The position numbers and the translations under genes are program-made. This document shows, one piece after another, positions 3,787 to 19,372 of a stretch of DNA of 24,008 nt. The notes beneath the pieces were generated by a model. That model had not been told where the DNA came from. It made no database searches and saw only the letters and a program-made list of their open reading frames with translations. Numbering within the stretch: position 1 is the stretch's first letter; every line of letters begins with the position of its first letter. This DNA is from a bacterium (GTDB lineage Bacteria > UBA4055): contig JAKQBN010000083.1 in the NCBI GenBank assembly GCA_029559475.1, forward strand, positions 1 to 24,008, read 5' to 3'.

Positions 3787-4248
3787 TTATATCAGCAGAT
3801 TTCGGAGCATGAAATTAGAGTTCTGGATCCTGTCGTAGAGCGTTTCATACAGATTTCTGAGTATCAGGAATCCGGCTTTGTGGTCGTTCTCCAAAAGCTG
3901 AATGAATTTTTTCCCGTTTATCCTTACTAATTCGCAGTCGGTCATAGTTACGGCTGATGCGCTTCTGCGTTTATTTACTATGCTGGACATTTCGCCGAAG
4001 AAATCGCCCGGATTTACCGTGTAAATAGACTTGGAGTCATCGTTCTCTTTTGAGAAATAGCGCGATGAGACGAAGATCTTAACTCTTCCTGCTACAACGA
4101 TGAACAGGTCGCAGTTGTCGGAGCTGTCCTCTTCCAGGACCGTTTCATTGGCTTTTATTTTTTCGAGCTTGGAGAATACGCTGATCTTCTTTAAGATGCT
4201 CTCGTCGATCCCTTCGAACATTTTTGAATTTTTTAAAGTCTCAAGCAT
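3787..4248 (-). CDS. Stand-alone cyclic nucleotide-binding domain protein
   Basis: 153 aa, essentially one cNMP-binding domain. The phosphate-binding cassette is visible: GDFFGEMSS at 81-89 with the key Glu86, then RRSASA at 94-99 with Arg95 in the position that contacts the cyclic phosphate. This predicts real cAMP or cGMP binding. There is no helix-turn-helix, kinase or membrane domain; the C-terminal 30 residues are helical. The SD site cggagg lies 7 bp before the ATG. It is last in the asnS operon, 18 bp after the epimerase gene, and is followed by the terminator. Such single-domain proteins are often regulatory subunits that act on partners encoded elsewhere; the partner is unknown. Confidence 0.85.
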   Translation of the reverse strand: MLETLKNSKMFEGIDESILKKISVFSKLEKIKANETVLEEDSSDNCDLFIVVAGRVKIFVSSRYFSKENDDSKSIYTVNPGDFFGEMSSIVNKRRSASAVTMTDCELVRINGKKFIQLLENDHKAGFLILRNLYETLYDRIQNSNFMLRNLLI

Positions 4249-15032: not shown

Positions 15033-16526
15033 ATGAAAAGGTTTTTGATTTTATTTCTGATAATTATTTCGCTTGTACTTTATTCACAGGACGCGCCGGC
15101 TTCAGATGATAATGCAGCTCCCGGATCTGATGAAGTAACGAACGCTCCTTCAGAACCCGGATCAGAATCCGATGAAAAGACAGTCGGATCGATAATAATC
15201 GGAGGAGTGAACATTGACGGAAAGAACTATCAGCAGATAGGTATGAGGCTCGACATTCCCATAGGCAAACTTGGTATCGGGGCGGATATTCAGCTGCTTA
15301 TCGACGAGGAGGGAAAGATCAGAGAAGATGACTGGGATGAATTCGAGGATTATCTCGACAAGATCTTTTATCTGAGATGGGCGCACAAAGGCGATCCTTT
15401 TTACGTCAAAGTAGGCGGGCTCGATTATACATATCTCGGCTATAATATCCTCGTTGACGGATACTCGAACATGATAGAATATCCGACATACAAGCGGATA
15501 GGTATGGAACTTGCTTTCGAAGGGGATAAATTCGGAGGAGAGCTTTTAATCAACAACTATAAAGAGCTTTTTTCGGATGAACCGGGACTTTTACTGGGCA
15601 TGAGAGGCTATTATAAAGTATGGGGCGATCTGTCTTTCGGAGCAACTTTCGCATCAGATTTCAATGAATACAACGGACTAAGGGATAACGACGAGGACGG
15701 ATATCCGAACGAGATCGACAGATATCCTGAAGAAGAGAAATACGCTACGGAATACGATTATTTCCTCGATCAGTCAGGCAGTACCGCATTTGCCGATTCG
15801 GCTGTAGTTTACGGTATAATCGACGGTCTTAAGAGAGAAGACCTTGAGAACTTTAATAATAAAACCAAACAGTCGGTAGCCTGGGGATTCGACATAGGCT
15901 ATCCTCTCTACAAAGGCAGTTTCGCGAACATTGACGTTTACGGACAGTGGGCGCAGATAAAGGATTACGGGAACGGTTTTTCAGCTCCCGCTTTCAGAAT
16001 AACTGCAGGACCGTTCGTATTCAGAGCAGAATACAGGCACACTGACGGAGAATTCCTGTTCGGATATTTTAATCAGGCGTACGAGCTTGAAAGAGCTGTT
16101 TACCGCGGTACAACTTATGTAACAAAACAGGAAACTCTGGAAGGCGTACCGTCACTTGACGGATATTTCGTGGGAATGCATTTTGACGGATGGGGTATCT
16201 TCAGACTCAATGTTAATTATCAGGATCTGATCGGCGAAGACGATGTCAGCTGTAAATCGCTTTCAGGCGAGCTTGCGATCGATGAAAATCTTTTCAAAAA
16301 ACTGGCTGCAGCAAAAGCTTATTACATGCAAAGCAATATCGAAGACATACAGTGGAAAACCCCGAGCACGGTTTTCGGCTACGTTCTGGGATATAATGTC
16401 AGCGAAGGCACAGCTGTTCTCTTTGACTACAGATACACCTTCAAAGACAAAGACGGTGACGGCGACGTGAACAGCGATGACGAGATGATCAAGTCTATAA
16501 GCGTGACGACCAAGATCGTTTTCTAA
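15033..16526 (+). CDS. Predicted outer-membrane beta-barrel protein with calcium-loop motifs
   Basis: 497 aa. A signal peptide is clear (MKRF followed by a 13-residue hydrophobic run, cleavage near residues 18-20). An acidic, Pro/Ser-rich linker follows to about residue 50. The rest alternates aromatic and polar residues as in barrel strands and ends 'TTKIVF', the C-terminal Phe signature for the BAM machinery. Two DxDxDGxxxxxD calcium loops are visible: DNDEDG... at about 217-228 and DKDGDG... at about 472-483, the second in the last hairpin of the barrel. Specific porin family not recognised. Single-gene unit with its own promoter, strong SD and terminator, so probably well expressed. Confidence 0.8.
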   Translation: MKRFLILFLIIISLVLYSQDAPASDDNAAPGSDEVTNAPSEPGSESDEKTVGSIIIGGVNIDGKNYQQIGMRLDIPIGKLGIGADIQLLIDEEGKIREDDWDEFEDYLDKIFYLRWAHKGDPFYVKVGGLDYTYLGYNILVDGYSNMIEYPTYKRIGMELAFEGDKFGGELLINNYKELFSDEPGLLLGMRGYYKVWGDLSFGATFASDFNEYNGLRDNDEDGYPNEIDRYPEEEKYATEYDYFLDQSGSTAFADSAVVYGIIDGLKREDLENFNNKTKQSVAWGFDIGYPLYKGSFANIDVYGQWAQIKDYGNGFSAPAFRITAGPFVFRAEYRHTDGEFLFGYFNQAYELERAVYRGTTYVTKQETLEGVPSLDGYFVGMHFDGWGIFRLNVNYQDLIGEDDVSCKSLSGELAIDENLFKKLAAAKAYYMQSNIEDIQWKTPSTVFGYVLGYNVSEGTAVLFDYRYTFKDKDGDGDVNSDDEMIKSISVTTKIVF

Positions 16527-17407: not shown

Positions 17408-17451
17408 TCAATTCCGCCTGATATATAATGCGAAAAAAAGATATTAAATTA

Positions 17452-17480
17452 TTGCGGAAATACAAGGTTTTATTTAATTT
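17452..17480 (+). promoter_or_regulatory. Possible promoter of the 191-aa gene
   Basis: TTGCGG (17452-17457), 17-bp spacer, TAATTT (17475-17480). Both boxes are imperfect. The leader would be about 25 nt and contains the agggag SD. Confidence 0.35.
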
Positions 17481-17511
17481 ATTTATCGGGAAAAAAAGGG
17501 AGAAATACTCC

Positions 17512-18087
17512 ATGAAAGAAATTAACGTCGCGGTAATACACGATGCCTCGATCTTCCACGAAGACATACTCATAGGCGTCAATACCCAGATTAATTACGA
17601 GCCTCAGAAGCTTCACACGACCCATATGCTTATAAAAAATCAGATATTAAAACAGATAAGCGAATATGAGAAAAACCCACAGATGTATCAGATGGCTATG
17701 AAACTTAAATCGAATCTTGCTGATCTGATATACTGTCATAAAGAAGGGATAATCGGCTTCGAAGATATAGAAATGAACAAGGACAGCACGAACGTTCAGT
17801 TCGACAATAAAATAGTCAGCACGGGATATAATCTTATAAAAAAGGACGAAGTCGATATAGTTTTCATAGCCACCAAATTCGGTGTGATCAAATACAACGT
17901 AAATACCTTGGCTCTCGAGAACGATCTGCACATAACGACGGTTTCATCGCAGCTGGAATTCCATCACAAATTCGACCGGTTTCTTGCTACACTTAAGGAC
18001 GACTATTTAAGGCATCATAAGATACGGGTAAAAATAATGAACGAGATCAAGATCAGAGAGGATATGTTCAAAGTTCAGGAAGAATAG
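17512..18087 (+). CDS. Unknown 191-aa cytoplasmic protein
   Basis: 191 aa from the ATG at 17512, preceded by agggag at 9 bp. The frame runs 28 codons further upstream to 17428, but that part is Lys-rich low-complexity sequence overlapping the promoter zone and is left out. No signal peptide or membrane segment. Alternating beta ('INVAVIHDASIF', 'VDIVFIATKFGVIKYNV') and helix segments suggest an alpha/beta fold; His-rich spots ('KLHTTHM', 'LEFHHKF') are notable. I do not recognise the family. The 3' end overlaps the end of pdxA by 20 bp, tail to tail. Confidence 0.8.
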   Translation: MKEINVAVIHDASIFHEDILIGVNTQINYEPQKLHTTHMLIKNQILKQISEYEKNPQMYQMAMKLKSNLADLIYCHKEGIIGFEDIEMNKDSTNVQFDNKIVSTGYNLIKKDEVDIVFIATKFGVIKYNVNTLALENDLHITTVSSQLEFHHKFDRFLATLKDDYLRHHKIRVKIMNEIKIREDMFKVQEE

Positions 18088-19078
18088 AGCTTCTGTTTTT
18101 TAAAAAGATCTTCGCTTTTTCTACAGCATTTTTAAAACTTCTGAAATCCGCAATTCCTTTCCCGGCAATATCGTAAGCGGTACCGTGATCGGGCGATGTT
18201 CTGACAATTTTCAAACCTGCGGTAAAATTCACTGCCGAGCCGAATGAAAGCAGTTTTAAGGGTATAAGTCCCTGATCGTGATACATTACGAGATAAGCGT
18301 CTGTTTTAGCGAGGAAATTTTCCGTAAAAAGAGTATCGGAAGGCATCGGTCCTGTAAAATGTCCTTCTTTTATCATTCCGTTAAGTTTATCAACGGCCGG
18401 TTTAATGATCTTGTCCTCCTCATCGCCGAAAAGACCGCTGTCCCCCGCATGGGGATTTAATGAACAGACGGAGATTCGCGGAGAGTTTATCCCGTAATCC
18501 TGCTTCAATGAATTGTAAAGCAGGCTTCCTTTATTTACGATCGACGGAATATTTAGCGCAGCCGGAACATCTTTTATAGCAAGATGGGTCGTTACGAGAG
18601 CCACTTTGATCTTTCCACCGTCAAGTATCATCAGATAATCATCAGTGTGTAAAAGTTCGGCTATAAATTCAGTGTGTCCGGGATAATTGAATCCTCCAAG
18701 ATGAAGAGAATATTTATTTATCGGACAGGTCACAAGTGCTCCGCCGTATTTTACTGCAAGCCCGACGCCCGTTTTAATCGCTTCGCCCGAAAGCTTTCCG
18801 GCCTCTTTTTCCGCATGCCCGACATCGAGTTTAAGACCCGGCGCCGGGATATCAAGGAAATAAAACCCGCTGTTGATGCCTTCTATCTGTTCTTCGGAGA
18901 TCGTTTGAATATCATCAGTTTTAAAGTTCAAAAGACCGGCAGTTTCATCGAAGATCCTTCTGCATCCGATAACGATGTAAGTGACGTCTGTTCCGCGTGT
19001 TAACGAATGAAAGAATTTAAGGATAAGTTCATTCCCTATGCCGTTGACATCACCTGAGGTAATGAATATTCTGCTCAT
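18068..19078 (-). CDS. pdxA: 4-hydroxythreonine-4-phosphate dehydrogenase
   Basis: 336 aa from the ATG at 19078, which has aggag 8 bp upstream; an earlier ATG at 19129 is rejected because it precedes the family N-terminus and has no SD. It oxidises 4-phosphohydroxy-L-threonine in pyridoxal phosphate synthesis with NAD and a divalent metal. The metal-binding His lie in GHTEF, NPHAGD and MYHDQG; 'GPMPSDTLF' and 'TSPDHGTAYDIAG' are family signatures. The N-terminal loop reads TSGDVNGIGNE instead of the common TPGxPAGIGPE, so two prolines are replaced. pdxJ is not in the window. The gene runs alone on its strand with a CRP/FNR-like palindrome upstream. Confidence 0.95.
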   Translation of the reverse strand: MSRIFITSGDVNGIGNELILKFFHSLTRGTDVTYIVIGCRRIFDETAGLLNFKTDDIQTISEEQIEGINSGFYFLDIPAPGLKLDVGHAEKEAGKLSGEAIKTGVGLAVKYGGALVTCPINKYSLHLGGFNYPGHTEFIAELLHTDDYLMILDGGKIKVALVTTHLAIKDVPAALNIPSIVNKGSLLYNSLKQDYGINSPRISVCSLNPHAGDSGLFGDEEDKIIKPAVDKLNGMIKEGHFTGPMPSDTLFTENFLAKTDAYLVMYHDQGLIPLKLLSFGSAVNFTAGLKIVRTSPDHGTAYDIAGKGIADFRSFKNAVEKAKIFLKNRSSILPEL

Positions 19079-19142: not shown

Positions 19143-19158
19143 TGTGATGTAAATCACG
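19143..19158. promoter_or_regulatory. CRP/FNR-family binding site, class II position
   Basis: TGTGA-tgtaaa-TCACG matches the E. coli CRP consensus TGTGA-N6-TCACA at 9 of 10 half-site positions. Its centre (19150/19151) is at -41.5 from the start predicted by the TATAAT at 19180-19185. This is exactly the class II activation geometry. Which CRP/FNR-type protein binds it is unknown. Confidence 0.7.
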
Positions 19159-19191
19159 GTTTCATAAAGACAATTTTTGTATAATTTATAC
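19157..19191 (+). promoter_or_regulatory. Activator-dependent promoter of the candidate small RNA
   Basis: Perfect TATAAT (19180-19185) with no recognisable -35 at the expected place (cggttt, overlapped by the CRP-like site), as typical of class II activated promoters. Start expected at the A at 19192. The -10 lies inside a 13-bp palindrome GTATAA-T-TTATAC (19179-19191), which could be a second protein site. Confidence 0.6.
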
Positions 19192-19265
19192 AGGGGGAGG
19201 TTTAATATACAGAGGTGGAATTAAACCGAACAAAAAAGAGCCTGTAAAAAGGCTCTTTTCAATTT
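19192..19265 (+). ncRNA. Candidate small RNA, about 70 nt, CRP/FNR-regulated
   Basis: Between a good regulated promoter and an intrinsic terminator lies only about 70 bp. The RNA would begin AGGGGGAGG, fold a first hairpin TTTAAT/ATTAAA (19201-19206 with 19220-19225) whose loop shows GAGGUGGA, and end in the terminator stem at 19234-19259. Two GGA-containing purine-rich segments, one in a loop, could pair with SD-like targets in reverse or bind a CsrA-type protein. A possible 10-codon ORF from GTG at 19215 exists but runs into the terminator stem and has poor SD spacing. No family match known to me. It faces ffs tail to tail. Confidence 0.5.
19234..19259. terminator. Intrinsic terminator between the candidate small RNA and ffs
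   Basis: Stem AAAAGAGCC (19234-19242) / GGCTCTTTT (19251-19259), loop tgtaaaaa. Plus strand continues TTTTCAATTTTT; the minus strand has a cleaner six-T tract, so it probably ends both the candidate small RNA and any ffs readthrough. Confidence 0.8.
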
Positions 19266-19271
19266 TTATAA

Positions 19272-19372
19272 AAAATTAAGCCGGGATGACTGCAACACAT
19301 GACAATTCCGGTGTGGCTGCTACCGCTAGGTCCTGACCCGTTCCCGGTATGCCATTGCGCAGGTCCCGGCAG
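19272..19372 (-). ncRNA. ffs: Signal recognition particle RNA, small bacterial type
   Basis: The minus strand shows the conserved Ffh-binding domain: GGGTCAGG-ACC-TAGC-GGT-AGCAGCC, i.e. the asymmetric and symmetric loops around an apical stem with a UAGC (URRC-type) tetraloop. The ends pair: GCCGGGA (19364-19370) with TCCCGGC (19280-19286), giving a single closed rod of about 91 nt, followed by a T-rich tail. With Ffh and FtsY it targets nascent membrane and secreted proteins. Exact ends are inferred from the closing stem and promoter. Confidence 0.93.

Follow-up and report, generated by a model that had tools for sequence, protein, structure and literature searches.

Does the gap between ffs and pdxA in an uncultured member of the Delongbacteria hold a gene for a small regulatory RNA? 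The window, i.e. the whole stretch of 24,008 nucleotides analysed here, comes from a genome (G000) whose assembly is 2.28 Mb and 92% complete (~8% missing), and the PdxA relatives that carry names in their records are mostly Candidatus Delongbacteria MAGs. A first-pass annotation of the window proposed that a small RNA is made in the gap from a class II promoter of the CRP/FNR type. We find that the RNA is very probably real, judging above all from a second copy in another genus. The locus is probably an intergenic small-RNA gene of the Delongbacteria, activated by a CRP/FNR protein, whose product would pair in trans, independently of Hfq and CsrA, through a G-rich 5' end that is conserved.

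The element sits in a 197-nt gap, with ackA on the far side of ffs. The features of the region are:

18068 to 19078, minus strand: pdxA (PF04166, E 5e-93), which borders the gap at the operator end
19143 to 19158, either strand: CRP/FNR-type palindromic operator TGTGATGTAAATCACG, centre 19150.5 (-41.5), aligning with TATGATATAAGTCACT in G009 and TGTGAGCTGTGTCACT in G003
19180 to 19185, plus strand: -10 element TATAAT, no -35 box, predicted start at 19192; TATTAT in G009, equally far from the operator there
19192 to 19262, plus strand: predicted small RNA of ~70 nt, fold z -4.6, covariance match in G009
19194 to 19200, plus strand: 5' GGGGAGG, mostly single-stranded and Shine-Dalgarno-like, identical in G009, a candidate pairing seed
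19199 to 19227, plus strand: hairpin 1, stem GGTTTAAT/ATTAAACC; G009 shares seven pairs, two of them changed on both sides
19234 to 19259, either strand: bidirectional intrinsic terminator, common to ffs, four of ten pairs changed on both sides in G009
19276 to 19371, minus strand: ffs, bacterial small SRP RNA (RF00169, 57.8 bits), the convergent neighbour

The operator and the -10 element

The operator TGTGATGTAAATCACG matches nine of the ten specified CRP positions. From its centre to the last base of TATAAT there are 34.5 nt, which places the start at 19192 and the operator at -41.5. A sigma-70 scan at the element finds no -35/-10 pair. Both the palindrome at this position and the perfect TATAAT without a -35 box are therefore present as the first-pass annotation described them.

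The spacing was evaluated over the whole window, on both strands, by counting operators of at least 9/10 combined with a -10 of at least 5/6 at class II distance. This combination is found once in the real window and 1 time in 60 dinucleotide-shuffled windows, while operator, -10 and terminator together never occur in the 60. The spacing agreement is unusual, but the argument that three independent elements make chance unlikely goes too far. The terminator is not an independent element, since it is bidirectional and lies directly behind ffs (19371-19276, minus), which it serves.

The palindrome alone is weak evidence in G000, where it is barely enriched. Searching the genome for the same palindrome, as had been recommended, does return 42 sites with at most one mismatch, but the reversed-pattern control already gives 30 and most of the sites inspected fall inside genes. 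Of the 13 genomes of the family, 11 have more CRP palindromes than control sites, and in several the excess is clear (G009, 51 versus 11; G011, 63 versus 23). Elsewhere in the G000 genome a perfect CRP palindrome, TGTGAAAAATTTCACA (L136 1501-1516; G000:C17:4540), lies 47 nt upstream of an ORF that looks NuoE-like by eye, and this site is a possible further member of the regulon.

The RNA body

Downstream of the predicted start, the stem-loop at 19199-19227 and the terminator at 19234-19259 together fold with -22.8 kcal/mol (z -4.6). The picture of ~70 bp followed by an intrinsic terminator, with no fitting protein gene, is borne out. With a predicted promoter of its own, an intrinsic terminator and no conserved ORF, the element has the make-up of an intergenic small RNA. 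The element is unlikely to be coding, as the window copy contains a single ORF, a GTG frame of 10 codons that G009 lacks, and no peptide is conserved between the G000 and G009 copies. At the gathering score no Rfam family matches the RNA, the adjacent ffs being the sole hit.

A homologous element in another genus

The whole element is present in the same gap and on the same strand in Candidatus Delongbacteria STF1_163 (G009; JAQVNT010000089.1), which belongs to another genus and whose PdxA is 62% identical to that of G000 over 206 aligned residues. This homologue was located by comparing ffs-pdxA gaps; a DNA similarity search of the relatives gave chance-length matches only and missed it. The order in G009 is an 8/10 palindrome, TATGATATAAGTCACT, followed by TATTAT (5/6), GGGGAGGUUU, a hairpin, CCGAA and the terminator, and the distance from the operator centre to the last base of the -10 is again 34.5 nt. 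In both genomes a CRP/FNR-type palindrome thus lies near -41.5, over the -35 region, together with a -10. When the two gaps are shuffled, the operator/-10 combination turns up 8 times and once in 20,000.

The local alignment of the two elements scores 64, against 23.2 +/- 3.7 for shuffles with a maximum of 42. This independent test matters because the covariance model was built on the two sequences themselves, which makes its scores for G000 and G009 circular. The segments GGGGAGGUUU and AAACCGAA are identical in the two copies, and the stretch that begins with the first G and ends with the last A measures 37 nt in each. None of the 17 base pairs is lost in G009, where six of them show changes on both sides; slid controls are 32-65% paired; the structure is thus conserved with compensatory changes, as judged from two sequences only. 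The G009 copy, with its identical geometry and compensatory changes in both hairpins, supports the proposal of a class II promoter driving a small RNA. Two purine-rich GGA segments, one of them in a hairpin loop, had also been pointed out; both exist in the window copy, but only the 5' GGGGAGG is kept in G009.

Distribution among relatives

Conservation in relatives that keep the pdxA-ffs order had been put forward as a test of the proposal, and its outcome is divided: G009 has the entire element and G003 an operator-like site, while G001, G002, G005 and G007 lack it. Where ackA-ffs-pdxA is kept, ffs and pdxA are separated by 18 nt in the two genomes of the same genus as G000 (G001 and G002), by 21 in G005, 66 in G007, 96 in G003 and 194 in G009. 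Neither operator nor RNA is found in the gaps of G001, G002, G005 and G007. In G002 (L038 1597-1614), G001 (L037) and G005 (L043), no terminator is visible in the 18-21 nt that separate ffs from pdxA, which suggests that the SRP RNA and pdxA could be co-transcribed there.

In G003 the operator-like TGTGAGCTGTGTCACT is kept upstream of pdxA and the RNA body is absent (L040 1598-1693). The gap matches the pdxA-side half of the G009 gap (score 40, reached in 0/2000 shuffles). The G003 gap ends shortly after TGTGAGCTGTGTCACT, where ffs follows directly, as though the RNA body had been cut out. In this genome pdxA may be under CRP/FNR control, the operator possibly serving pdxA.

Two full copies are known among the 386 genomes searched. 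Four family genomes have no ffs match, and in G004 and G006 ffs and pdxA are on different contigs; no credible match to the model was found anywhere in these six. Covariance matches of up to 30 bits in other family genomes were rejected as ordinary terminators or coding DNA without GGGGAGG, and the only match outside the family, at 34 bits in G033, is unrelated too. In viral contigs the pattern was matched 48 times, which is chance level, with none above ~25 bits with the model.

In the trees G009 lies beside G005 and both are separate from G000. Combined with the patchy presence, these positions require several losses or repeated transfer. The RNA is dispensable, since it is absent from the same-genus G001 and G002 and from the near-sister G005. 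It can tentatively be speculated, at somewhat less than even confidence, that the two copies represent an undescribed small-RNA family of the Delongbacteria, under direct control of a CRP/FNR sensor, which regulates through a 5' Shine-Dalgarno-like GGGGAGG seed with neither Hfq nor CsrA detected, and which has undergone repeated gain or deletion in the ffs-pdxA gap.

Candidate regulators and RNA-binding proteins

CRP/FNR proteins with a recognition helix of the IETAIR type are present in 13/13 family genomes, and the G000 assembly encodes one full-length CRP/FNR protein, which has this helix. At least nine of the 13, G000 not among them, encode a second CRP/FNR protein with an RETLSR helix and a strong cyclic-nucleotide domain. 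The recognition helix of E. coli CRP is RETVGR. TGTGA would be the expected target of the RETLSR type, yet the 92%-complete G000 assembly yielded no such protein; this type is either absent from the genome or missing in the assembly. The element may respond to redox state or to cyclic-nucleotide level, as the first-pass annotation suggested. A search for operators upstream of the CRP/FNR genes revealed no shared autoregulatory site. Within the window, a 153-residue protein (3787-4248, minus) resembles by eye a cyclic-nucleotide-binding domain without a helix-turn-helix.

No hfq was found above the cut-off in any of the 13 family genomes, so the RNA does not qualify as an Hfq-dependent one. Nor does any of the 13 contain a csrA match above the cut-off; there is one weak 22-bit match in G009.

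Proposed mechanism and alternative explanations

We suggest that the palindrome at -41.5 is the binding site of an activator of the CRP/FNR family, which would recruit RNA polymerase to a -10 without a -35 box, a class II activation to which the geometry points. The predicted transcript of ~70 nt would consist of an exposed 5' GGGGAGG, a hairpin, the CCGAA linker and the intrinsic terminator, and the same terminator would also end the convergent ffs. Most likely the RNA acts in trans, by base pairing via the conserved 5' G-rich end, and would do so without Hfq or CsrA.

Of the alternatives, the one that survives best places the function on the minus strand: the terminator ends ffs, and the operator and hairpin are the upstream region or leader of pdxA, through which a CRP/FNR protein regulates this gene. 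The palindrome works in both directions, and G003, without the RNA body, keeps TGTGAGCTGTGTCACT upstream of pdxA in DNA homologous to the pdxA-side half of G009. The conserved class II -10 and the RNA body, on the other hand, are on the ffs side and read away from pdxA, and by eye no good pdxA -10 is found at a canonical CRP distance. The folds of the plus strand are -22.8 (G000) and -25.6 kcal/mol (G009), those of the minus strand -20.8 and -16.2. Read on the plus strand, hairpin 1 and the terminator of G009 each contain a G-U pair, which on the minus strand would be an A-C mismatch; the T-run of G009 is also longer on the plus strand. The G-U pairs, the weak minus-strand fold and the longer T-run favour a small RNA over a pdxA leader, which we regard as unlikely, although the operator may serve both directions.

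The RNA could also be a regulated decoy, whose 5' GGGGAGGU imitates a ribosome-binding site; its partners would then be the 3' end of 16S rRNA or C-rich RNAs instead of particular mRNAs. GGAGGU near the 5' end is a perfect Shine-Dalgarno core with no conserved start codon after it, and GGAGG is the ribosome site of a local gene. Since the predicted pairing with a generic 16S tail does not go beyond shuffles (z -0.7), we give this explanation little credence.

If a palindrome and a -10 had come to lie next to the ffs terminator by chance, the same layout, with its spacing and covarying stems, would have to have arisen a second time at this site in another genus. That makes chance very improbable, even though ~30 such palindromes are expected in the genome from the control and the ffs terminator needs no small RNA to explain it.

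Finally, a role as a sponge that captures a protein of the CsrA/RsmA type, suggested by the two GGA segments of the window copy, is almost certainly wrong, because csrA is not found above the cut-off in the 13 genomes, the hairpin-loop GGA is absent in G009 and the RNA does not have several conserved GGA loops.

Relation to known small RNAs and possible targets

The small RNA proposed here most likely belongs to a previously undescribed family that works like CRP/FNR-controlled small RNAs known elsewhere. FnrS is an FNR-activated small RNA of enterobacteria and, similarly, a short intergenic RNA behind a CRP/FNR-family operator with an intrinsic terminator at its end. It differs in showing no sequence or Rfam match, in seed and in neighbourhood, and no Hfq was found in the Delongbacteria family genomes. 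Spot 42 and CyaR are CRP-controlled small RNAs and share the CRP-type operator near the promoter; however, there is no sequence or Rfam relation, and the regulator of the Delongbacteria element is predicted by class only. RNAs of the CsrB/RsmY type are CsrA sponges and resemble the window copy in its GGA segments, but only one such segment is conserved here and no CsrA was found. To our knowledge, regulatory RNAs have hardly been described in candidate phyla. The only open-access work listed as mentioning both Delongbacteria and small RNA concerns flagellar control in Borrelia. The element offers a concrete, testable RNA, for which a start, a class of regulator and a seed can be predicted, in a lineage without detected Hfq or CsrA.

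Presence and absence among close relatives provide a natural set for finding targets. In a small screen of 15 local regions, the best prediction (z -3.5) falls at the beginning of the 15033 gene, which can be taken as a weak lead only. The window ORFs at 15033-16526 and 17428-18087 (both plus) are long and have no Pfam match.
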